A stretch of 33,965 bases of DNA, from positions 1 to 33,965 of the forward strand of contig CAINLR010000047.1 of the NCBI GenBank assembly GCA_903850425.1. The letters run 5' to 3'. A program made the position numbers and the translations under genes. Positions 3,735-33,965 of the stretch are shown one piece after another. This DNA comes from an uncultured Verrucomicrobia subdivision 3 bacterium. Lineage in GTDB: Bacteria > Verrucomicrobiota > Verrucomicrobiia > Limisphaerales > UBA11358. The stretch's first letter is position 1, and every line of letters begins with the position of its first letter. The notes under the pieces are model-generated. The model had not been told where the DNA came from. It saw nothing but the letters and a program-made list of their open reading frames with translations, and made no database searches.

Positions 3735-4017
3735 CGGCGTTTGATAATGTCCGGCGGGCAAATTTTCCCAGTGCCGTAACCGTTGAGCATGGCGCGGCGT
3801 GATTCGCGCGCGGGTGAAGCGAAAGGCACGCCGGGCGGGACTTTCGCAAACCGGCGATGGCGTGCCGGTGCAAGGCCGTCAGGCCACAGCATGAGCGACG
3901 GCGGACGCGCGCGGCGAAAGACATTCGCCAAAAGAAAACCGTGAATGGTTGCACGCCCGTCTGAATTGAGCGCGGCGCGGCGCAAAGCGCGAACTGAAAT
4001 TTCCCCCGCTGGCGGGC
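3735..4017. other. Noncoding stretch with one long-loop hairpin
   Basis: No gene is supportable. GGCACGCC (3825-3832) is inverted at 3859-3866 (GGCGTGCC). Open frames here are short, antisense to each other and unlike any family known to me. Confidence 0.4.
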
Positions 4018-9573: not shown

Positions 9574-9981
9574 ATGGATTTGAACGACTTTTTGGGTCCG
9601 AAGCCGATCGTAATTGACCTGCAAGCCGAAAACCGGTGGCAGGCCATTGATGAATTGGTTGGCTGCCTCGTGACCAACGCCAAGATCAAGCCCGAGCATC
9701 AGGAAGCAATTGTGAAGGCCATCAAAAAACGCGAAGCTTCAATGAGCACTGGAATCGGATTTGGCATCGGCATACCGCATGCATCAACTGATTTGGTTTC
9801 GGAAGTCGTCGGAGCCATGGGACGTTCGCGTAATGGGGTGGAATTCGGCGCGTTGGATGGCAAACCCGTCCGCCTAGTGATGTTGTTTCTGGTCCCTCAG
9901 GGGCAATTTCAAAAGCATGAGCACGCGCTGGCCACTCTGGCCAAGCTGCTGCATAACCATGATTTCAGGGACAGTTTATAG
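9574..9981 (+). CDS. PTS EIIA (fructose/nitrogen type) domain protein, 135 aa
   Basis: This is a single-domain EIIA of the mannitol/fructose/PtsN superfamily. The phosphorylated histidine lies in GIGFGIGIPHAS (His69 from the chosen start), followed by VGAMGRSRNGVEFGALDGKPVRLVMLFLVP, which is typical. No membrane EIIB/EIIC partner is nearby, so a regulatory PtsN-like role is more likely than sugar uptake. The start chosen is ATG 9574 (MDLNDFLGP) with GGTGG just upstream; a TTG at 9535 would add residues from the operator. It ends 11 nt before the LysR gene, so both are probably co-transcribed. Confidence 0.85.
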   Translation: MDLNDFLGPKPIVIDLQAENRWQAIDELVGCLVTNAKIKPEHQEAIVKAIKKREASMSTGIGFGIGIPHASTDLVSEVVGAMGRSRNGVEFGALDGKPVRLVMLFLVPQGQFQKHEHALATLAKLLHNHDFRDSL

Positions 9982-9992
9982 GAATTGTAAAT

Positions 9993-10880
9993 ATGGAACT
10001 CCGTCACTTTCGCTATTTCGTCGCCGTCGCCGAGGAGGAAAATGTCTCGCGCGCGGCGCTGAAGCTGCATGTCTCACAGCCGGGCTTGAGCCGGCAAATC
10101 CGCGACTTGGAAGATGAAATCGGCTTCGCGCTTTTCAAACGCAGCGCCAAATCGTTGCACCTGACGGCGGCGGGAAAATCGTTTTTGATCGAGGCGCGGG
10201 CGGTGCTTGCGCACGCCAATGATGCCGTGAATAAAGCCCGCGCCGTGGCGGGCGGAGCCACGGGCGAGATCAATGTGGGTTACGCGCCATCGTTGACCGT
10301 GCAGATTCTGCCGCAGGCGTTGCGCGCGTTTCAGGAGAAATTTCCCGGCGTGCGCGTGGCGCTGCACGACCTGACCACGGAAGAAATGCTCGCGCGACTG
10401 GGCGAAAAGAAATTGCAAGTGGCGCTCACCGTCCGCCCGCCGGCCAAACTGCTGCGCGGATTGAACTGTGAAGATCTGGCGCGTTATGAAATGTGCGTGG
10501 CGGTCGCGCCGAAGCATCCGCTGGCAAAATCAAAATTCATTTCGTTGGAGCAAATCTCGCGCGAGCCGCTCATCGCCTACAGCCGCAAGGAATATCCCGA
10601 ATACCACAGCCATCTGGCGACGCTGTTTACGCCGTTCGGTCGCAAGCCCAATGTGGTGAGCGAGCATGACGGGATAACCAGCCTCATCGCTGATGTCGAG
10701 GTCGGGCGCGGCTTTGCGCTGGTTCCCAGTTCGGTCGCGTGCATGGCCGGACCGCGCTTGAAATTGCTGGCGCTGCGCCCGGCTTTGCCGCCGATTCTCG
10801 TGGTGGCCGTTTGGCGCAAAGAGCCTGAGTCGGAACTGGTGAAATTCTTCATCGCGGCCGCCAGACCGCCGGCGAAGTAA
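9993..10880 (+). CDS. LysR-family transcriptional regulator, 295 aa
   Basis: The N-terminal winged helix (MELRHFRYFVAVAEEENVSRAALKLHVSQPGLSRQI in pieces, residues 1-60) is textbook LysR. Residues ~90-290 form the periplasmic-binding-like effector domain (INVGYAPSLTVQILPQAL). The sequence is closest in style to the CatR/BenM/YhaJ type that senses aromatic or quinone-like ligands. It probably controls the divergent pirin gene through the palindrome at 9542-9562, and perhaps the WrbA/YceI group beyond. Regulation of its own operon is expected from the family. Confidence 0.92.
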   Translation: MELRHFRYFVAVAEEENVSRAALKLHVSQPGLSRQIRDLEDEIGFALFKRSAKSLHLTAAGKSFLIEARAVLAHANDAVNKARAVAGGATGEINVGYAPSLTVQILPQALRAFQEKFPGVRVALHDLTTEEMLARLGEKKLQVALTVRPPAKLLRGLNCEDLARYEMCVAVAPKHPLAKSKFISLEQISREPLIAYSRKEYPEYHSHLATLFTPFGRKPNVVSEHDGITSLIADVEVGRGFALVPSSVACMAGPRLKLLALRPALPPILVVAVWRKEPESELVKFFIAAARPPAK

Positions 10881-10937
10881 CCGACAATTAGCAATTCCCG
10901 GCTCGCCAGTTGTCCGGCATTGAACTAGCCTTGCCCA

Positions 10938-11876
10938 ATGACGGATTTGTCCCGACCGGATATTATTTTGACCCACGAAAGCGACCTCGACGGTTTCGTC
11001 GCGGGCCTGTTTTTGCAGAAGCTCGCGAAGAAGATGTTCAATCGGGACGTGCCGCTGGAGGCCTATCATTACAATTACTGGAAGCAGCGGGAACTGCGCG
11101 AAAAGGCGGCGTGGGTTACGGACTTCACGTTTGAGACGCGGATGGACAAGCCGGACTGGACGATCATTGATCATCACGTCACGGAGGCGGAGCCAAAGTT
11201 CGCCCAGCTCATCCACGACAAAACCAAATCCGCCGGCCAGCTCTGCTACGAAATCTGCCAGCAACACGGGTTGGAATCGCCCACCATGGCGCGGCTGGCG
11301 CACCTGAACAACGTGGCGGACTTGTTTTTGGAGAATGATCCGGATTTTGAACTGGCGGGCGATTATGCGGCGCTGGTGAAGGTTTACCAGTTCTGGAATC
11401 TGCACTCGGTGATTGATGGCGAGATCGAGAAGTTGCTCAACCATCCGTTGCTCGAAGTGATGGCGGTGAAACGGCGCGTGGAAGATCCGCTCGGATTCGA
11501 CTGGAGCCGCAAAAACATCACGGAAATCACTCCGGTCATCGGCTATGTGGACACGGTCATTGGCAACAATAATTTGATCGTCCACCAGTTGCTGGAGCGG
11601 CAGGTGACGAAATTTCCCGTGCTGGTCACCTTGTTCAAACGTCCAAATAACGCGGTCATCGCCAGCTTTCGCAGCCGCAATGGCGAGGCGCTCAAGGTGG
11701 CGGAGAAATTGCAAGGCGGCGGCCACGCCAACGCTTCCGGCGCGATGCTGCCGAAGTCCGTCCGCAGCATTCAGGAGGGCATCGAGTATCTGCGCCAGGT
11801 GTTGAATTTGAAACACGAGACGCCGCTGAACAACTTCGGCAGTTTGCTCGACAGTTTTGCGCCGGCCAGACGCTGA
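10938..11876 (+). CDS. DHH-family phosphoesterase, 312 aa
   Basis: The two-domain DHH/DHHA1 architecture is visible. THESDLDG (residues 12-19) is the first metal-binding motif, DHH at 78-80 is the signature, and GGGHANASGA at 260-269 is the DHHA1 substrate-binding loop. Relatives include NrnA oligoribonucleases/pAp phosphatases and cyclic-di-AMP phosphodiesterases. There are no PAS, GGDEF or membrane segments, and the length (312) suits a soluble nanoRNase-like enzyme. RNase PH follows 66 nt downstream, so an RNA-turnover role is plausible. The exact substrate cannot be read from sequence. Confidence 0.85.
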   Translation: MTDLSRPDIILTHESDLDGFVAGLFLQKLAKKMFNRDVPLEAYHYNYWKQRELREKAAWVTDFTFETRMDKPDWTIIDHHVTEAEPKFAQLIHDKTKSAGQLCYEICQQHGLESPTMARLAHLNNVADLFLENDPDFELAGDYAALVKVYQFWNLHSVIDGEIEKLLNHPLLEVMAVKRRVEDPLGFDWSRKNITEITPVIGYVDTVIGNNNLIVHQLLERQVTKFPVLVTLFKRPNNAVIASFRSRNGEALKVAEKLQGGGHANASGAMLPKSVRSIQEGIEYLRQVLNLKHETPLNNFGSLLDSFAPARR

Positions 11877-26470: not shown

Positions 26471-26547
<77 letters not shown>

Positions 26548-26708: not shown

Positions 26709-27374
26709 TCAGGAAGTTTCCTTTTTCGCATTCACCAGACCGCGCAATTGGCCGTGACGGTAAGCAAAAAACCAAAGGCCGACTGCCGCAGCGACGCCGG
26801 CCAAAATCAGAAGCTCATTGCCCACGATCAGCGTCGGCAAAATAATCAGCGCGAGGCCACCGGCACAAATCGCCGCGCTCGTGGTGACACTACCGATGAG
26901 CAGTTTGAGTGGTGGATAAAAAAGTGTAGCCAGGCCGAACAGGAACAAGACCACGCCGACCCACACGATGCCTTTGAGGCTCGCCAGCTTCGCGCCGAGT
27001 TCGCGCGCCGTGTCTTTCTGCGCCGCTCCCAATTCCGTAGTTGCTCGCGTCTCTTCATGTTCGGTCACAGCCATCGGTGCGCTGATTACCAGGGCCGTGG
27101 CATTCGTGGCGGGCGCTCCACTCGTGTCGGCAGACACTCGCGTCTCCACCAGTCGAGAACCCGTCGGCACGGTGTAAGATTTGGTCCGAACGGTTTCTTG
27201 ATTTTGCCGCGAGGCTTGCGCCGGGTTGTCGCCTTGCACGACGGATTGCTCAATGCCTTGAGTAAATTTACTCACCGTGTTGGCGTGCCCGCCCCTGAGC
27301 GGCGCGTTGGTGCAGCCGGCCAGCAGCCAGACCGCCGCGATGATTGCAAAATCAATGAGGATTAACTTTTTCAT
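26709..27374 (-). CDS. Lipoprotein with C-terminal membrane helices, phage-cassette end, 221 aa
   Basis: The start chosen is ATG 27374 (MKKLILIDFAIIAAVWLLAGC) with AAAGGTG 10 nt upstream; a GTG at 27383 is less likely. LLAGC is a lipobox, so Cys21 would be lipidated. A polar Thr/Ala/Gln-rich region (~25-125) follows. About three hydrophobic stretches (VWVGVVLFLFGLATLFY, AAICAGGLALIILPTLIVG, LLILAGVAAAVGLWFFAY) end the protein. I recognise no family. Position after a membrane-anchored coiled-coil gene at the end of a head cassette suggests a lysis or envelope function, but this is a guess. Confidence 0.65.
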   Translation of the reverse strand: MKKLILIDFAIIAAVWLLAGCTNAPLRGGHANTVSKFTQGIEQSVVQGDNPAQASRQNQETVRTKSYTVPTGSRLVETRVSADTSGAPATNATALVISAPMAVTEHEETRATTELGAAQKDTARELGAKLASLKGIVWVGVVLFLFGLATLFYPPLKLLIGSVTTSAAICAGGLALIILPTLIVGNELLILAGVAAAVGLWFFAYRHGQLRGLVNAKKETS

Positions 27375-27654
27375 ACGATTCACCTTTCATGTGTTGATCC
27401 AACAAAATGCTGATGCGGTCCACCGTCCGCGCCATCACCGACTGGTTTTCCGTCAGGGTGGCGATGCTCGCCTTCAGATCGTGCCGCTCCTCGATGGCGT
27501 AATTCTCGCGGACTTCCATCGCCGAAATCCGTTTGTCCATGTTGACCCACAAGCCCACGACCGCCGCCGCGATGGACAGTAGTTGCAGGATATTCCCCAG
27601 GGTAATTTCCGGCGTGAACCGGATTTTTTTCGGATTCTGAATTTGTTCGTTCAT
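27352..27654 (-). CDS. Small single-pass membrane protein with coiled coil, 100 aa
   Basis: One hydrophobic segment (LGNILQLLSIAAAVVGLWVN, ~19-38) is followed by a heptad-like stretch (KRISAMEVRENYAIEERHDLKASIATLTENQSVMARTVDRISILL). Similar small phage proteins occur beside holin and lysis genes. The start overlaps the stop of the upstream DnaT-like gene by ATGA (27651-27654), and its own end overlaps the next gene by 23 nt, so all three are translationally coupled. Confidence 0.7.
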   Translation of the reverse strand: MNEQIQNPKKIRFTPEITLGNILQLLSIAAAVVGLWVNMDKRISAMEVRENYAIEERHDLKASIATLTENQSVMARTVDRISILLDQHMKGESYEKVNPH

Positions 27655-28205
27655 ACGCGGATCAGCCGCACCGCGCCGCTGGTGGCGCTGATTTGCGAGC
27701 CGTATTTCGCCAGCATGACTTGAGCGACTTGAGACAGCACCGGCCGGCGGTCGGTCTTGTCGTAACCGGTTTGAACGCCGCCGGAGTTGAAATACTTCAA
27801 TCCCTCGCCCGTTGGCGCGACTGTCCGGTCAGCGATCAAAAGTTCCCGCGCCATCTCACAAGTCGCCTGGACAACCGCTTTCGGCACGGTGTCGTATTGA
27901 ACGTAGTCGTAAGGAATCGGCAGCAGCACGGAGATCGGCACATGGACGTTGTCCGGCTCGGGGCACTTCGCGCGCGGCCATTGCAACCCTTGCACGGCAT
28001 TCGTGCGCGTGCCGTTGAATTGAAACTCCGCGTCAATCAGCCGCGACGCCATCACCAGCGCCACGGCTTTTTGATCGTCCGTCGCACCTGTCCACGCCGT
28101 GGCATACAGATGTCCAGCATGGTAAGCGTCGCCATCAGCCACGTCGGCGTAGCTGTTGGCATCCACCAGACCGGCCCCGGTCTCTTTGATGAGCGTGAGT
28201 GCCAT
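27651..28205 (-). CDS. DnaT-like phage protein (head-completion/adaptor position), 184 aa
   Basis: The opening MALTLIKETGAGLVDANSYADVADGDAYHA, read in blocks, and the later VQGLQWPRAKCP are typical of the phage family annotated as 'DnaT-like ssDNA-binding protein'. That family sits between capsid and tail genes and is more probably a head-tail adaptor. The start ATG 28205 fits the family N-terminus; the longer frame to 28286 is unsupported. Length (184) is normal. Confidence 0.78.
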   Translation of the reverse strand: MALTLIKETGAGLVDANSYADVADGDAYHAGHLYATAWTGATDDQKAVALVMASRLIDAEFQFNGTRTNAVQGLQWPRAKCPEPDNVHVPISVLLPIPYDYVQYDTVPKAVVQATCEMARELLIADRTVAPTGEGLKYFNSGGVQTGYDKTDRRPVLSQVAQVMLAKYGSQISATSGAVRLIRV

Positions 28206-28230
28206 ATTGATTCTCTGATGGTGGGAGCGT

Positions 28231-28998
28231 TCAGAATTGATCGTAAGCCAGCCCGCTCCCGTTGTTATAAAGCCGGACCGCTTCACTCGCGGTCAGCGCG
28301 CGACTCCAAAACCCGACTTCATCGATCGGCCCCACCCAGCCATAGATCGACGAGCCGGCGCCAATTCGCACCTGGTCGGGCATCACCCGTGAACCCGCTG
28401 ACACCGTCGCGGCATCCACCAGCCCGCCGTTATGGTAAAAACTCATCAAGTTGTCCTGCATCGTGACCACCAGATGATGCCATTGGTTCACCGGCAGCCA
28501 GGCCGTGACGAAGCCGCCATCCACCCCGAACAGCGAGCCCGAGACCGCGCCGCCAGCGTCACCCACCGGCACCAAACCCTGCACCTGAAAACAGTCCGTG
28601 TCGGAGTCCGACTCATACAGATTGAACGCGATTTGCCAGTTGTCGCAATTGCTGACATAAACCCATAACGACAACGAGAAATCCGCCGCCACCGACACCC
28701 GGCTGGCACTGCCAATCAGCCCCTGCCCACCGGTAAACACCGCGCCGAGATTGCGGATGCCGGGCCCGGATAGGATTGGCGTCGCCCCGGCTACCACCGG
28801 GGTCAAACCCAGTTTATCGGCGCGCGGCAGCCAGCCCGTGGCGTCCGTCTCATCCAAATCCCAATACGCCGCCAAGCCGGAGCGCAGCGACACCGGCGGC
28901 ACGCTGGCACCGGCTCGCGCCCGCCGTCGCTTCTGCTCCTCCAGCGCCAGCCACACGCGCCTCTGGCCACGCGTCATCGGTGGGTTAATACGATTCAT
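28231..28998 (-). CDS. LamG/concanavalin-like phage surface protein, 255 aa
   Basis: After a basic N-terminus (PMTRGQRRVWLALEEQKRRR) comes a LamG jelly-roll domain (~45-250): LAAYWDLDETDATG, FSLSLWVYVSN, WHHLVVTMQDNLMSFYHNG and the ending IDEVGFWSRALTASEAVRLYNNG. Such domains bind carbohydrate or cell-surface ligands and occur on phage decoration or fibre proteins. The start ATG 28998 overlaps the end of the upstream small gene (28985). A head-decoration role is inferred. Confidence 0.78.
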   Translation of the reverse strand: MNRINPPMTRGQRRVWLALEEQKRRRARAGASVPPVSLRSGLAAYWDLDETDATGWLPRADKLGLTPVVAGATPILSGPGIRNLGAVFTGGQGLIGSASRVSVAADFSLSLWVYVSNCDNWQIAFNLYESDSDTDCFQVQGLVPVGDAGGAVSGSLFGVDGGFVTAWLPVNQWHHLVVTMQDNLMSFYHNGGLVDAATVSAGSRVMPDQVRIGAGSSIYGWVGPIDEVGFWSRALTASEAVRLYNNGSGLAYDQF

Positions 28999-29185
28999 CC
29001 TGGGAAACAGGTTTGGTAGCGGGAGCTTTCGGTTGCTCCGGCGCAAGACTCACCACAGGTTGAACCGGATCGGCGGAGGACCGTCCGCAATGCGGGCAGA
29101 TCGTGACCACCGGTGCCGGGACTGGCGCGACAGCCGTCAGTAACGACTGTCGCTTCCGCCGAATGATGGGATAGGGACCATTCAT
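28985..29185 (-). CDS. Small CPHCGR protein of the phage cassette, 66 aa
   Basis: This short protein has a single CxxC knuckle (TICPHCGRSS) in the middle, a basic start (MNGPYPIIRRKRQSLL) and Pro/Ala/Val-rich flanks. No family is recognised. The start ATG 29185 has GGAAAGC upstream, and its end overlaps the LamG gene start by 14 nt. The knuckle suggests a half zinc site completed by dimerisation. Confidence 0.55.
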   Translation of the reverse strand: MNGPYPIIRRKRQSLLTAVAPVPAPVVTICPHCGRSSADPVQPVVSLAPEQPKAPATKPVSQDESY

Positions 29186-29219
29186 ATTTCTGCTTTCCAA
29201 TTTCTACTTTCTGCTTTGC
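29186..29219. repeat. AGAAAG/GAAATTGG-type short purine repeat
   Basis: On the minus strand the gap reads GCAGAAAGTAGAAATTGG followed by AAAGCAGAAAT: two copies of AGCAGAAA around GTAGAAATTGG. It resembles the GAAATCGG heptamer array found inside pyrK at 4529-4567. It supplies the ribosome-binding region of the CPHCGR gene. Confidence 0.5.
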
Positions 29220-29220
29220 C

Positions 29221-29448
29221 CTAGATGGCGTTAATGCCGATGGCGACTTGCCGCCAGTTCGTGCCATCACTGATGGCGAGACACGGCACGGAACCCGTGC
29301 CACCGGCGGACAGGTAGATGATGCGACGCGGAAATTTCGCCGCCGTGACGCCCGCAGCGACCGCCGCCGCGACGTTGGTAAAAGTTGTCGGCTGGATTTG
29401 TTCACCCGAACGAATCCGCTCAAAACTGCGAGGAAGAAGTTTGCCCAT
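29221..29448 (-). CDS. Small phage head-associated protein, 75 aa
   Basis: The start chosen is ATG 29448 (MGKLLPRSFERIRSGEQIQP). The C-terminal half is beta-rich and glycine-containing (YLSAGGTGSVPCLAISDGTNWRQVAIGINAI in parts). That pattern is common in small conserved phage proteins encoded just after the major capsid protein. The family is unnamed to me. A decoration or head-stabilising role is inferred from position only. Confidence 0.6.
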   Translation of the reverse strand: MGKLLPRSFERIRSGEQIQPTTFTNVAAAVAAGVTAAKFPRRIIYLSAGGTGSVPCLAISDGTNWRQVAIGINAI

Positions 29449-29477
29449 AAGTTTGTTTTTGTTGGTTGAGGAAGTTA

Positions 29478-29528
29478 CCGCCAAGAACGCCAAGATTTAA
29501 AACCTTGGCGTCCTTGGCGTCTTGGCGG
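29478..29528. repeat. Dispersed CGCCAAG inverted/tandem repeat abutting the capsid gene stop
   Basis: CCGCCAAGAACGCCAAG (29478-29494) is inverted as CTTGGCGTCTTGGCGG (29513-29528) with one bulged base. An extra CTTGGCGTC copy lies between them. The capsid stop codon (29529-29531) directly adjoins the right arm. Related AAGACGCCAAG units are, to my knowledge, scattered through genomes of this type. It could act as a transcription-end or mRNA-protecting hairpin. Confidence 0.7.
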
Positions 29529-30539
29529 TTAAATATTATGAGTGACCGCCACGACGGGGACGTTTTTGTTTTCCCACACGCGCACCCAGTTGGCGGCGGT
29601 GGCCAATTCAGCATTGGTCGGGTTGGCACCGGCCACGCTCGCGCTAGTGAACTTCACACCACGCGGATGCAGGATGAAGCGACGGCGATTGACGAGGAAT
29701 GTGTCGCTGTTGAGAGCGTCACGCGCCATTTCGCAACCTTCCGTGCCGTGACCACCCTCGACGGGCGCGCCGTTCAGATCGGCAAAACCCATGCCGAACG
29801 CGCCGGGGCCGAAGAGGTAAGTGGTATAAACCTGCCCATCCGTGGTGCCGTTGCGCGACGGACAGCCGTCATCCACGATGACGCGCCGGCCCTGGAACGT
29901 GCGGATTTGCGCTTCACCCTGACTGTCCGGGATGAAGTCAATCAGGTCCAGCTTGCGCAACGCGGCTTCAGTAGCGGAGTGCATTGCCACCGCGACGAGG
30001 CGGTCGCCCCGGTCGCCGAGCCGCTGGGTCGCATCCACGAAGGTCGCGCCGTTCAGCCGAGTGGCAGCCGTCTGCGCGGCGACGGATTCGGAATGAATCG
30101 CCAACAGATTGCCCGCCATGCTCGCCGCACCGAAGACGCCGGTGAGGGAGTTGATCAGCATGTATTGGTTCTGACGGTTCCAGTATTCCGCAAGGAAGTC
30201 CGCCAGCGCCAAGGCCGGATCATCACCGGCAACTTGCGTCGCCAGATGATTCCACGACCACGCATTGCCGTCGTTCTGGATGCGGGCGATGTCCTGGTCG
30301 GCCACGAGTTTCGCCGGCACGAGCGGTGCCGAATCAGAGAGCGGCTGGCGGTTGCCCGTCAGGTCATTCCAGTGCGGCATGTTGACTTGCGTGCCACCGA
30401 GCGCGGCGCGCGTGTCATAGTCCGGCGTGCGAATGACGATGCCGGATTGGAACAGGTCGGATTTCTCCGCCGTCCGTTGGAGAACGTAACCAGCGAACTG
30501 CGCTGGCACGATGATGTCTGCAAGTTGTGTCTTGGCCAT
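29529..30539 (-). CDS. Phage major capsid protein (gp13-like), 336 aa
   Basis: The sequence shows the pattern of a widespread siphophage/podophage coat family. It opens MAKTQLADIIVPAQFAGYVL, then NMPHWNDLTG, ADFLAEYWNRQNQYMLINSL, MHSATEAALRKLDLIDFIPD, RRVIVDDGCP, YLFGPGAFGMG, NRRRFILHPRGVKFTS and the closing VRVWENKNVPVVAV. Length is usual and the frame intact. It assembles the icosahedral shell on the scaffold encoded 25 nt upstream. Its stop abuts a repeat element. Confidence 0.9.
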   Translation of the reverse strand: MAKTQLADIIVPAQFAGYVLQRTAEKSDLFQSGIVIRTPDYDTRAALGGTQVNMPHWNDLTGNRQPLSDSAPLVPAKLVADQDIARIQNDGNAWSWNHLATQVAGDDPALALADFLAEYWNRQNQYMLINSLTGVFGAASMAGNLLAIHSESVAAQTAATRLNGATFVDATQRLGDRGDRLVAVAMHSATEAALRKLDLIDFIPDSQGEAQIRTFQGRRVIVDDGCPSRNGTTDGQVYTTYLFGPGAFGMGFADLNGAPVEGGHGTEGCEMARDALNSDTFLVNRRRFILHPRGVKFTSASVAGANPTNAELATAANWVRVWENKNVPVVAVTHNI

Positions 30540-30564
30540 AAACTAAGTTTTGTGTTGTGACCCG

Positions 30565-31320
30565 TTACGCCGCCGCCTTGAGGCGAGCAGCAAGTTGCGG
30601 ATCGGTTTTTTGGATCTTCATTTGCTCCGTGAGATTGAACGATTCCTTGCGGAACGGATTCTTCACGGACCGGTTGCCGGCGGCACCGCCACCAGAGCCA
30701 GCAGCACCGCTACCAGCGTTTGCTTCGAACAAGTGCGGTGCGTCGGACACCAACGCATCCACCCATTCAGCCAAAGTCATCGGCGACACGCCGTCCTTGC
30801 CCGTGCGGACAGTCTGGCCGTCAGCCTCGAAAGCCTGCGGCACGCCATTGACGAGCTTGAACGTCTGGCGGGCGCGGGCGGTAATGTCAGTCAATGCCGT
30901 CGGGCGCAGGCCACGTTTCGTGGCTTCACTCACGACGGCTTGATCAATCTGAATGGCCGTGAGGCGGGACGTGAGCGTGTCGCGTTCGGCGACCACGACG
31001 CCATGCGTCTTATCCCATTCGGCGCGGGCGGTCTTGATACGGGCATCAATGACCTTGTCCACTTCGCCGGCCTTGAGTTGGGCGGCCTCTTCCAACTTGC
31101 GTTTGTCATCGGCGAGCTGACGCACGGCGTCAGGGTCAATGCCTTCAAAGCGTTTCAGTTGGTTGGTGAGAGTGATGTTGTTCTGGCGGAACTCATCCAA
31201 CTTGGACTGACTCACGACGCCATCGGCGTCGAGCAGCCAAGCGCCGTCGCGCTCAATGTAGAAGGATTGATGTTCAGCAGGGATTTCCTGCTTGGTTGCG
31301 AATTTGTATTTCAGCGGCAT
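30565..31320 (-). CDS. Phage scaffolding protein, 251 aa
   Basis: The protein is highly helical, with a coiled-coil centre (LDEFRQNNITLTNQLKRFEG ... LADDKRKLEEAAQLKAGEVDKVIDARIKTARAEW). A Gly/Ala-rich linker (~205-222) separates it from a basic C-terminal segment (SVKNPFRKESFNLTEQMKIQ) ending in Ala-rich LAARLKAAA, as scaffolds that bind coat through their C-terminus do. Place between portal and coat supports this strongly. It begins 3 nt after the portal stop. Confidence 0.87.
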   Translation of the reverse strand: MPLKYKFATKQEIPAEHQSFYIERDGAWLLDADGVVSQSKLDEFRQNNITLTNQLKRFEGIDPDAVRQLADDKRKLEEAAQLKAGEVDKVIDARIKTARAEWDKTHGVVVAERDTLTSRLTAIQIDQAVVSEATKRGLRPTALTDITARARQTFKLVNGVPQAFEADGQTVRTGKDGVSPMTLAEWVDALVSDAPHLFEANAGSGAAGSGGGAAGNRSVKNPFRKESFNLTEQMKIQKTDPQLAARLKAAA

Positions 31321-31323
31321 AAA

Positions 31324-32841
31324 TCAGGTGATTGGTTGAGGTTTTTCGTTTTTGCTGACAGGCATCGGCGGCGTGACCGCGACCGGCGCGGGCGGACGCT
31401 TCTCGGTTGCCAGCAGTTTAATTTCTTCATCGTTGGTGCGACCAGGTGCGATGACTTCACCGGAGCGAAAGAGGTCGAGCATCGTTGCCTGACTGATGGC
31501 ACCAGCCTGCCACGCGGCGACCAGTGCGGTGATCTCCAGCGCCGACATGCCGGTAATGCTGAAGTCGGTATTCAGCGAAGCCAGCACGAGGTCGGGACCG
31601 ATGGCGTCAGGAATGGATTCGGTCGAGTTCCACCAATAGACCCAGCGCAGCACTTGTGTCAGCGATGCACTGATGCTCAGAGAGACGGTGTTGAGAATGG
31701 AGTTCTCGCCGGATTGACGGAGTTCGATGGCAGCGGCGGTTTCGCCGACGCGCTTCTGGGATTCGAGCATCCGGGTGCCGAGGACGGCCATGAGTTGCTC
31801 GTCACGATCCATCGCGCGTTCAAAGGTGGACAGACCTTGACCGTGGAATTCAAGATAGCCAGCCGTGGCGCCGGGCGCTTCGGCGACCCATGCCGTGCTA
31901 CTACCGATGCGAAGGCTGGAGTTCTTGTCGAAGCCAGAAACCCAAGCGGTAGGCAATGCGGTGTAGTGCATCCCATGCTTGTAGTCAGCATTCAGGCGGT
32001 AGTGGTCGAGATTGACAGCGAGGATGTCGGCCAGCGGGATCTTGTCCACTTCCGGCAGGGAGTGACGAGGACCGTGAAAGACAAAGGGAATCAGCGGCAG
32101 CGGTTTGCCGAGACGAAGCGGCGTGATGGTGTCAGTGAGCTTCCATTTCTTTTTGCCACGGTTGCGAGTGGCGGAAGTATTTTGACCATCAGAAAGGAAT
32201 TGCCAGATTTCGACTTGGTAAGACCAGTCGGCTTTTGCATCAGCAGTGGATTGCGGCGGCACGAGTTTCAGAACGCGGAGTTGCTGGATTTCTTCCGGCT
32301 CGAATGGATCATCTTCGGCGACGGGCGTTTGGCTGATTTCCTTGAGGACGACCAGCGTGAGGACGTTGCGACCATTGACCCGTTCCGTGTGCCAGTTGAT
32401 GATGTCTTCAGTCGAATAGGCGACGGAGTAAGCGCGCTGCTCGGCTTCGCTGTTCCAGTCAATCAAAGTGCCGGCACGACCGACGTTGATGATTTCCGTG
32501 ACGAGTTTTTTTGTGAAGGCAGACAGAGACGTGCCGAGCATGTCGGCATCTTCCACAAATTCGGTGAGTGCATCCGCCACGCCGCCGGATTCAGGAAGCT
32601 TGAAAGTTGGATCACGGCGGAAGATCAGACCGACAAAGCCATCAGCAGTGCGGGCGGAAGCGTTGAAGAAGGCGGCGCGATTTTTGTAAGCGAGATATTC
32701 TTTGTCATCCTGACAGTCGAGACGTGGAAGATATTTTTCGGCAGCAGATTTGACGGCATCTTCGCCAGCGAAGACATCACGCGCCCGTTGCCAGGCGAGG
32801 ACGTTTGCGTCGTAATCAGGATGTGTCGAATTGACGGGCAC
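31324..32841 (-). CDS. Phage portal-like protein (DUF4055 family), 505 aa
   Basis: HPDYDANVLAWQRARDVFAG and EKYLPRLDCQDDKEYLAYKN are the family's N-terminal signature; FFNASARTADGFVGLIFRRDP follows. Later blocks (PLPLIPFVFHGPRH, LADILAVNLDHYRLNADYKH, AVLGTRMLES) complete a portal-type fold of ~500 residues. DUF4055 proteins occupy the portal slot in many tailed phages. The start is GTG at 32841; no Shine-Dalgarno is visible. A terminase would normally be encoded just upstream, but none is seen. Confidence 0.86.
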   Translation of the reverse strand: MPVNSTHPDYDANVLAWQRARDVFAGEDAVKSAAEKYLPRLDCQDDKEYLAYKNRAAFFNASARTADGFVGLIFRRDPTFKLPESGGVADALTEFVEDADMLGTSLSAFTKKLVTEIINVGRAGTLIDWNSEAEQRAYSVAYSTEDIINWHTERVNGRNVLTLVVLKEISQTPVAEDDPFEPEEIQQLRVLKLVPPQSTADAKADWSYQVEIWQFLSDGQNTSATRNRGKKKWKLTDTITPLRLGKPLPLIPFVFHGPRHSLPEVDKIPLADILAVNLDHYRLNADYKHGMHYTALPTAWVSGFDKNSSLRIGSSTAWVAEAPGATAGYLEFHGQGLSTFERAMDRDEQLMAVLGTRMLESQKRVGETAAAIELRQSGENSILNTVSLSISASLTQVLRWVYWWNSTESIPDAIGPDLVLASLNTDFSITGMSALEITALVAAWQAGAISQATMLDLFRSGEVIAPGRTNDEEIKLLATEKRPPAPVAVTPPMPVSKNEKPQPIT

Positions 32842-33897
32842 GAGCGCACTTTAGCACGCGTTTTTGAAATTTTTTTGCAATGCCAAATCACCCACTAGAC
32901 GGATGCTGCCGCACGATGTCACACGCCGACAGACGCCGACATTTTTTTGCAATATTTCCACTTGACGGTTTTTCAATTCGGCCATGCGGCAGCAACAAAA
33001 TTAGTTCGCGTTGCTCAACAGGAAGTTTGTTCGCTGCGCTCAACAATGACGAATCGCGCGTCAAATTCACGGTCTCCATTTACGATGATCATTTCCCGCG
33101 CGCGGACGCCGGCGCTCATGCTGGCGGCGGCGGCTAACGCCACCGCTACGCCAGCACCGGCCAGCCTTCACAGGTTTACGAATGTTTTCTCACGGCTGGC
33201 CTTTCGCTGACAGCGCGCGCGATTCGGACGTCGCAGGTTGTCGGATGGTTGTAGGTCTTCTTCACGCTTTCAGGTTGGCGGATGATTTAGCGCGCTGTCC
33301 GGCGTTGAACTCCTCGTCGCTAACGCTCCTCGTCGTGGGTTGGTCACACTTCCGGCAGCGTGACCGAAGGCCGCGAGACTACGTCCGGCCACATCCAGCA
33401 TTATGGCCCAGGCTTCACCGAGCCGACACTTATACTCGTGCCTCGCATCAAGTATCGGCACGGTTCAGCCAGTGCCCGCTGCCTGACTCGACATTTTCCG
33501 CCCGCTCCATTCACTACCGCACTCCGCTACACAGATTACGCGGGATGCTCTCGCTCATTCCGACGGTCGCAAATTGCCGAGACAGGCATGGATTCAGGCG
33601 GGCACTCCCGTTGATCTTCGTTGGCTCCCTACGGTCGGGGACAGTTTGCTCGCGTTGCTCGGATAAATAATTGGGTTGGTTTTTTTGTGAAGGGCGCTTC
33701 GTTTTCAAGTCCATTTTTCACTGCTCACCGAGTCCCCTCAACCATCAGTCGCCTTGTCACGGCCTCACCCAAGACACCAGCCCGCCTCTCGCGGCTCCTT
33801 CTGAAGACCACTTCCACGGAGGAGGGCTAGGGGTTCGGCTTTTTCGCGAACAAGGCGACCGACGGATGAGGGGCGAGCAGTGCATAAAAAAAAGACT
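32842..33897. other. About 1 kb with no supportable gene upstream of the portal
   Basis: The first 150 bp carry a 13-bp direct repeat ATTTTTTTGCAAT (32869-32881 and 32941-32953), a tandem ACGCCGAC pair (about 32923-32940) and a 9-bp inverted repeat GCTGCCGCA/TGCGGCAGC (32905-32913, 32985-32993). Beyond 33000 the sequence is full of half-palindromic motifs such as TTCGCTGCGCTCAAC and CTCGCGTTGCTCGG. Frames of 60-160 codons on both strands have Arg/Ser/His-rich, non-protein-like composition. No terminase motif was found in any frame. It may be regulatory DNA followed by repeat debris. Confidence 0.55.
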
Positions 33898-33965
33898 ATG
33901 AAAACTACATCACAAAAAAAGACGAACAGGCTCCCTCAAGAATCGAAGCTAGTAGTGCCGCAGGC
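33898..33965 (+). CDS. Start of an unidentified gene, cut by the window end
   Basis: ATG at 33898 opens 22 codons (MKTTSQKKTNRLPQESKLVV...) to the window edge with no stop. The preceding AT-rich stretch (ATAAAAAAAAGACT) offers no clear Shine-Dalgarno. The polar, Lys/Gln-rich start is reasonable for a real protein, and it points away from the phage cassette. Too short to assign. Confidence 0.4.
   Translation, partial: MKTTSQKKTNRLPQESKLVVPQ

Follow-up and report, generated by a model that had tools for sequence, protein, structure and literature searches.

A probable capsid-forming phage satellite with a putative giant structured RNA in a Verrucomicrobia subdivision 3 genome

Capsid-forming phage-inducible chromosomal islands (cf-PICIs) encode their own capsid, portal, connector and both terminase subunits (TerS/TerL) and obtain their tails from a helper phage (PMC10690885). 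They have an average size of 14 kb and are listed primarily from Enterobacteriaceae, Lactobacilli and others (PMC10803314). A comparable set of genes, comprising TerS, TerL, portal, capsid, scaffold and a head-to-tail adapter, is carried by MulchRoom and MiniFlayer, two satellites of Streptomyces phages; in the sections of the source consulted, both are described as having direct terminal repeats, MulchRoom as having an integrase and a tail thought to be helper-derived, and MiniFlayer as having a tail-fibre gene and no lysogeny module (PMC10690885). The present analysis concerns a phage head cassette on contig C47 (CAINLR010000047.1) of an uncultured Verrucomicrobia subdivision 3 bacterium (GCA_903850425.1; 6.89 Mb in 197 contigs). 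This contig was analyzed in full and is called the window (33,965 bases). The cassette is, with good probability, the right-hand half of an integrated capsid-forming phage satellite of ~18–23 kb.

Very large folded RNAs of phages and prophages form the second point of reference. GOLLD and ROOL are often located near tRNAs and their function is unknown; GOLLD, with 'many members exceeding 800 nucleotides', is expressed more strongly in the course of phage lysis, and the abundance of ROOL can equal that of 16S rRNA, as stated in the available part of the source (PMC12286853). The noncoding transcripts of the PLE IIR and of ~800 bp in ICP1 are described as very abundant and as showing antisense homology to leader sequences (PMC7567579). 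In the element described here, the gap between TerL and portal holds a conserved block which looks like an undescribed giant ornate RNA. In the following, contigs of the source genome (G000) are labelled C, genomes G, and loci, i.e., the sequence stretches compared, L.

Head cassette, packaging genes and the search for a tail

The cassette is located on the minus strand and runs from 32841 down to 26709 in the order portal, scaffold, capsid, p6, LamG-fold protein, adaptor, p2 and p1. The initial annotation had described it as an intact head cassette lacking terminase, tail and integrase. Portal, scaffold, capsid and adaptor could be confirmed, but p1 and p2 are not recognizable as head proteins.

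With an alignment of six capsid proteins as query, relatives were searched in named genomes and in IMG/VR. The named genomes yielded 28 loci, of which 14 are titled Verrucomicrobia subdivision 3 or Limisphaerales, three other Verrucomicrobia and five 'bacterium', next to one beta-proteobacterium metagenome-assembled genome and five distant loci (38–47% identity) in other phyla; 312 candidates were confirmed in IMG/VR, the best 80 of which were kept. Among 43 relative loci examined for the arrangement of TerL and portal (L037–L079; L068, with a broken TerL, not counted), 13 cover both TerL's end and the beginning of portal, arranged as in the element and separated by a gap of 2.8–6.5 kb. Six elements are contiguous (G001, G002, G003, G004, G005, G007) and share one order: replication genes, TerS, TerL, gap, portal, scaffold, capsid, adaptor and p1. 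Their size, which is approximate as it was judged by shared content, is ~18–23 kb, and their capsids are 56–95% identical to that of the window. Of 49 genomes of the family, 21 yielded TerL, 17 capsid and 16 both.

The lack of a terminase in the window is an artefact of the contig end. The source genome contains six full-length capsid genes of this kind (C47, C10, C69, C112, C80, C129) plus a truncated one, and no cassette contig carries an intact TerL. On other contigs, however, TerL genes of one family are intact in seven places (C90, C92, C156, C13, C130, C67, C191) and present as fragments in three more. Contigs C47, C10, C69 and C80 stop 0.3–1.1 kb upstream of the portal start, C47 doing so at 1.1 kb and within a dispersed repeat; C129 already stops inside the scaffold gene and C112 reaches 2.4 kb beyond the portal start. 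Counting itself, the stretch upstream of the window's portal has 29 matches in the source genome, and C171 opens with a copy of the window's final 129 bases (100% identity). Parts of the repeat region adjoin TerL on C67, C90, C92, C156 and C191, the adjoining part on C90 and C92 being one which the window end itself does not contain. The terminase is thus hidden from the window because the assembly breaks in the repeated region between TerL and portal, and, as the window is a whole contig, absences beyond position 33965 carry no conclusion. The 1 kb on this side of the cassette, which had been annotated as noncoding, is not empty: it forms one end of a structured-RNA region that is conserved. 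Of the terminase and tail genes which, if present at a contig break, would by the initial annotation have refuted its observation, the terminase was found and the tail was not.

Contig C90 carries TerS and a tyrosine integrase, and one upstream gene on it matches the phage replication-initiation family NGO0469; relatives of TerS precede TerL on the other six TerL contigs. Helicase or primase-like genes are among the ORFs scanned on C90, C92 and C191.

No tail module was recognized in the six contiguous elements, whose small ORFs were not all scanned for tail families. The space between adaptor and p1 is less than 1 kb in all six and therefore too small for a tail module. How a tailed relative looks is illustrated by a sister lineage (L074, L075), in which TerL (27% identical) ends ~10 bases before the portal. 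L075 is a tailed phage with the same head module, and after its adaptor come genes for neck (phrog_169), tail terminator (phrog_179), minor tail protein, assembly chaperone and tape measure. Seven of these tail proteins were compared with 79 loci, including the elements and most cassette and TerL contigs of the source genome, and matched only L075 itself and its kin L077; the latter, another relative, was matched by four of the seven, and the RNA profile described below finds nothing in it. Of 12 genomes or records searched with the tape-measure protein of L075, ten gave no match; the other two are its own record and the source genome, where C176 was matched weakly. The absence of a tail from the element is real, and the initial annotation was right in this respect.

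C176 contains, at positions 107000–128000 (L253, L036), a separate tailed prophage with its own TerL, a portal and a capsid of other families than those of the cassette (phrog_2662, phrog_10), tail terminator and tape measure. That this prophage might be a helper is only a suggestion.

Some relatives (L051, L067, L068, L072, G061) extend several kb past the adaptor, and no p1 was found after the adaptor there. Ten ORFs located beyond adaptor or p1 in L051, L067, L072, L048 and G003 gave no match to a tail family. In L051 (9928–16049), L067 (14367–20923) and L072 (12894–17099) the adaptor is followed by genes for AIPR, Z1, helicase, DUF499 and nSTAND proteins and an Eco57I-type methylase with a DUF3800 domain. 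In part these matches, including Z1, DUF499 and nSTAND, are typical of anti-phage defence; the genes could belong to either the element or the host.

All six genes tested are under purifying selection, with ratios of non-synonymous to synonymous substitution rates (dN/dS) between 0.04 and 0.44. Copies within the source genome gave 0.04–0.38 for capsid (15 pairs), 0.12–0.22 for portal (six pairs), 0.14–0.23 for scaffold (three pairs), 0.09–0.44 for adaptor (six pairs), 0.17–0.20 for p1 (three pairs) and 0.10–0.16 for TerL (six pairs). Degraded copies exist as well, namely the truncated capsid gene on C95, an 85-residue portal remnant on C136 and a p1 remnant on C62. Copies that diverge, and in part decay, while their genes stay functional are what would be expected of a transmissible element. 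Of the three options raised at the outset, a satellite is the best supported one, as the contiguous relatives keep their packaging genes and no tail module was recognized in them.

A conserved structured block between TerL and portal

The block in the gap is collinear and 70–84% identical among the six elements. Unlike in the head genes, its insertions and deletions are mostly not multiples of three and its mismatches show no period-3 peak. Searching the collected loci with a profile of 2250 positions built for this block gave 69 stretches scoring 60 bits or more, with duplicate loci set aside. Profile positions 466–2240 look noncoding and form a core of ~1.8 kb. Positions 20–450 exhibit a weak period-3 signal, which fits a gene of ~140 amino acids on the opposite strand, and the idea of the whole block being noncoding was corrected accordingly. 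Full-length copies (L041, L042, L043, L044, L051, L072, L073) comprise ~2.2–2.6 kb of profile match, a span that includes the part overlapping this antisense gene. The window holds a shorter variant in which positions 466–803 are followed by 1550–2186; the match of its R1 domain (33739–33868) reaches 125.8 bits.

A short match to the RNA profile (77 bits) is located elsewhere in the window, at 3806–4003. C-terminal fragments of TerL followed by the RNA occur on C185 (35633–40300; L031), on C101 of G052 and on C55 of G041, representing partial copies that keep the RNA end. On C67 (L029) the RNA region adjoining TerL contains an IS110-type transposase gene (9637–11142).

Consensus folding was compared with column shuffles in 18 scan windows (up to 25 sequences, 15 shuffles each). 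On the forward strand z ranged from −0.9 to −22.9, and this strand had the lower energy in 16 of the 18. Coding controls on the same strand gave +0.6 to −3.7 (eight sequences, 12 shuffles), and two neighbouring blocks, with −0.2 to −5.9, are not clearly structured.

Base pairing is strongly supported by compensatory changes in the three domains tested, A4 (21 sequences), A5 (16 sequences; absent from the window) and A6 (24 sequences). In these, 96.8, 94.3 and 91.7% of the cells are paired, compared to at most 50.3, 47.8 and 45.0% for slid structures, a comparison which favours the actual structures as they were derived from the same alignments. Cells with double changes number 76, 95 and 99, against 22.5 ± 3.5, 29.5 ± 4.3 and 39.3 ± 4.0 in shuffles which keep the relatedness of the sequences. 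Both the pairing and the double-change values were reached by none of 500 shuffles in any of the three domains; among the other measures, the number of pairs with double changes in A6 and of further pair types in A4 were each reached by two of 500.

Alternatively, the region might act as DNA, with palindromes serving packaging, recombination or an origin; it has self-complementary stretches and adjoins TerL, a place where a packaging site is conceivable. The base pairs themselves make this unlikely. In a DNA hairpin no preference for G-T over A-C would be expected, so that an excess of G-U over A-C cells argues for RNA. The forward strand shows such an excess in A4 (119 to 14; 40 to 36 on the other strand), A5 (125 to 34; 64 to 52) and R1 (28 copies; 54 to 9 forward, 18 to 41 reverse); on the other strand much of it is lost in A4 and A5, and in R1 it is reversed. 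A6 is neutral in this test, both strands being alike (160 to 42 forward, 159 to 48 reverse). The fold of single R1 sequences is more stable in forward direction in all 28 copies. Judged by these patterns, the direction of the RNA is most likely that of the late operon, from TerL to portal, so that it would be antisense to the beginning of the small gene. At gathering score Rfam recognized only the tRNA; a permissive search gave two matches, both far below that score.

The conserved gene of ~140 amino acids is located on the opposite strand at the 5′ end of the RNA, e.g., at L012 14912–15322, L025 667–1077 and L033 6930–7361. It was detected by tblastn in 27 of 34 loci, L050 and L269 among these being the same element, and occurs in satellites as well as in solo copies of the RNA; the protein has no match in Pfam or NCBIfam. 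R1 lies just upstream of this gene, and the RNA overlaps its start region. That the RNA is a 5′ leader of this gene was considered and set aside, as that strand folds with more A-C than G-U. Some elements possess another antisense gene in the gap (L012 15229–16047, with homologues in G001, G007 and C11), which was read as sigma-factor/HTH-like and yielded no family match.

Within the 49 family genomes, R1 was found in 19, next to the 21 with TerL, some of which have fragments only. Both are present in 16 genomes, R1 without TerL in three and TerL without R1 in five (Fisher p 4e-6, a value that ignores relatedness). Across the order, R1 occurs in 46 of the 293 genomes, which represent 29 of the 118 genera. 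Fourteen stretches around R1 matches were inspected: four (L262, L265, L268, L269) include relatives of the element, one (L270) has TerS only, and the other nine, some of them cut by contig ends, contain no element proteins. Among these nine are weaker 'solo' matches of ~550–650 nt, a shorter chromosomal form of the RNA domain (L261, L263, L264, L266, L271, L272); a RadC-type gene adjoins the solo RNA in L261 and L264, and a homologue is located beside L267. The RNA domain hence also exists outside recognizable satellites. A DNA pattern of a conserved motif retrieved 84 stretches of viral contigs, and eight of the 79 loci newly made from them match the RNA model well, six of these on contigs already collected; as so few match, most pattern matches are due to chance.

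Element ends and competing explanations

Past p1, homology between insertions ends within a few hundred bases in most cases. The tRNA gene seen by the initial annotation at this side of the cassette is a tRNA-Met. It adjoins p1 in the window and in L038, and L048 exhibits, by eye, a truncated copy followed by an integrase gene. By eye, 3′ ends of other tRNAs are found at the p1 side in L042, L043, L050 and L057, where no tRNA is called by ARAGORN. Past p1 of G001, an integrase gene occupies the opposite strand, and G004 is nearly identical to G001 there. The tRNA-Met is thus the probable integration site of the window copy.

Several points weigh against reading the cassette as part of such a satellite. 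No convincing attL/attR pair of direct repeats was found in the six contiguous elements and the left-end ORFs tested in G002, G005 and G007 match no integrase family, so that the element ends are approximate. The pairs of left-end proteins in these three genomes (433/342, 398/390 and 405/367 amino acids) match nothing in Pfam; against PHROGs and NCBIfam, the first pair gave one match each near E 0.006, to the protein of 342 amino acids. In the source genome no contiguous copy from TerL to portal was seen, and the window is linked to a TerL contig through the shared repeat and through its relatives. The scan for tail families did not take in every small ORF, and the element may carry a tail of a kind outside PHROGs and Pfam.

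The lack of a recognized tail module would also fit a virus in its own right, with p1 and p2 replacing the tail and delivering DNA without any helper. In favour of this idea, all six contiguous elements have p1 after the adaptor, and p1 is subject to purifying selection. However, the head-tail adaptor, i.e., the part to which a tail docks, is kept and selected, p1 is missing after the adaptor in the five relatives named above, and neither p1 nor p2 matches a known delivery protein, all of which leaves this alternative with little probability. Even less probable is that the copies are what is left of ordinary prophages whose tails have decayed. Although the copies on C95, C136 and C62 are indeed decaying, the same order and the same tail-less end are shared by elements whose capsids are 56–95% identical to that of the window, six genes are under purifying selection and TerL is intact in seven places. 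A very recent deletion, as envisaged by the initial annotation, is rejected: the tail-less layout recurs in relatives with capsids only ~56% identical. A domesticated capsid or host gene-transfer agent, also envisaged there and compatible with head genes under selection, is the least probable explanation of all, as the copies are several per genome and divergent, with truncated ones among them, are distributed patchily (capsid in 17 of 49 family genomes) and are linked to replication genes, TerS/TerL and in some cases an integrase, and as a gene-transfer agent would be a single, vertically inherited locus with tail genes.

The features of the window copy are compiled in Table 1. Matches to p6 are present in many relative loci. 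The LamG-fold protein varies between copies (26–42% identity to its counterparts on C112 and C129) and is perhaps a head decoration. The adaptor probably starts near 28208. Gene p1 was found in two other copies of the source genome and in all six contiguous relatives. Searches of p1 and p2 against PHROGs, Pfam and NCBIfam assigned no family and gave chance-level matches (E 0.01 or worse) or none; from reading their sequences, both are taken for membrane proteins.

Table 1. Coordinates of the cassette genes, the adjoining tRNA and the structured-RNA matches in the window.
Feature	Position	Strand	Evidence
Structured RNA, hairpin domain (profile ~466–803), reaching the contig end	33609–33960	−	nhmmer 238 bits; covariation 33667–33948 (A4)
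Structured RNA, 3′ domains (profile ~1550–2186)	32970–33601	−	nhmmer 408 bits; covariation 32991–33347 (A6)
Portal protein	31324–32841	−	phrog_145, E 1e-117; PF13264
Head scaffolding protein	30565–31320	−	phrog_206, E 5e-39
Major capsid protein	29529–30539	−	phrog_247, E 1e-91; PF20036
p6, small conserved protein adjoining the capsid gene	29221–29493	−	66–90% identity in three other in-genome copies
LamG/ConA-like domain protein	28231–29046	−	PF13385, E 4e-17
Head-tail adaptor	27651–28286	−	phrog_477, E 2e-33; PF20557
p2, small protein with one hydrophobic stretch	27352–27654	−	ORF; matches in C112, C129, L037, L042, L054
p1, last gene of the window copy	26709–27383	−	ORF; lipobox-like N-terminus and hydrophobic stretches, by reading
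tRNA-Met, adjoining the end of p1	26471–26547	+	ARAGORN

Proposed mode of action and comparison with known systems

The element has its own replication genes, TerS/TerL motor, portal, scaffold and capsid but no recognized tail, and is present in several copies per genome. After induction, it would replicate and fill its own heads by means of its own TerS/TerL, and the adaptor would dock these heads to tails supplied by a helper phage, which would probably provide lysis, too. The RNA would be made along with the late genes and, by analogy with GOLLD and ROOL, may form a multimer. Its position suggests a role in packaging, but this is no more than a guess; candidate roles are those of a packaging-motor RNA, an RNA cage or an encapsidated RNA. 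It is conceivable, though rather doubtful, that a new class of giant RNA of ~2 kb resides in the packaging and head operon of a new Verrucomicrobial family of capsid-forming satellites, aids in making or loading particles and has a shorter, chromosomal solo form which likewise lies beside the conserved antisense gene.

In relation to phages, the portal has its nearest records among siphophages with a DUF4055 portal, such as Dinoroseobacter phage vB_DshS-R5C. The homology extends over 95% of its length, but identity is 34.8% in the top-ranked match (1431 phage records match, of which the best 30 were considered). A literature search restricted to open-licence papers found no paper on tail-less capsid-forming satellites in Verrucomicrobiota and, for large noncoding RNA together with terminase, portal and prophage, only papers on Staphylococcus phages.

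From its gene content, the element is best read as working like a cf-PICI, which is a likeness in organization and does not establish membership in that group. Like cf-PICIs it encodes capsid, portal, connector and TerS/TerL, has no recognized tail genes, is chromosomal and has a size of the same order. For site-specific integration the picture is mixed: integrase genes were seen on C90 and in G001, and tRNA or tRNA-like ends in several copies, but no integrase was recognized among the left-end ORFs tested in G002, G005 and G007 and no attL/attR pair was found. Neither a head maturation protease nor an HNH endonuclease was found among the ORFs scanned, which did not include every small one. 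The element differs from cf-PICIs in its scaffolding protein, in the giant RNA between TerL and portal, in its Verrucomicrobial host and in its several copies per genome. With MulchRoom and MiniFlayer it shares the same set of packaging and head genes; these satellites differ in their terminal repeats, and the part of their description that was available mentions no giant RNA. These comparisons would extend capsid-forming, tail-less satellites to the Verrucomicrobiota, and to a genome harbouring several copies.

The RNA resembles GOLLD, ROOL and OLE in being very large and elaborately folded. It differs from them by the lack of an Rfam match, its location between TerL and portal and its noncoding core of ~1.8 kb. 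With the transcripts of PLE and ICP1 it has in common that it would be a noncoding RNA of a satellite or phage; for those, the available part of the source describes no covarying fold. The block would accordingly represent an undescribed conserved structured RNA, above the sizes given for GOLLD and amid a virus packaging operon, and it would make the function of a giant phage RNA testable at a defined place, namely between the gene of the packaging motor and that of the portal.

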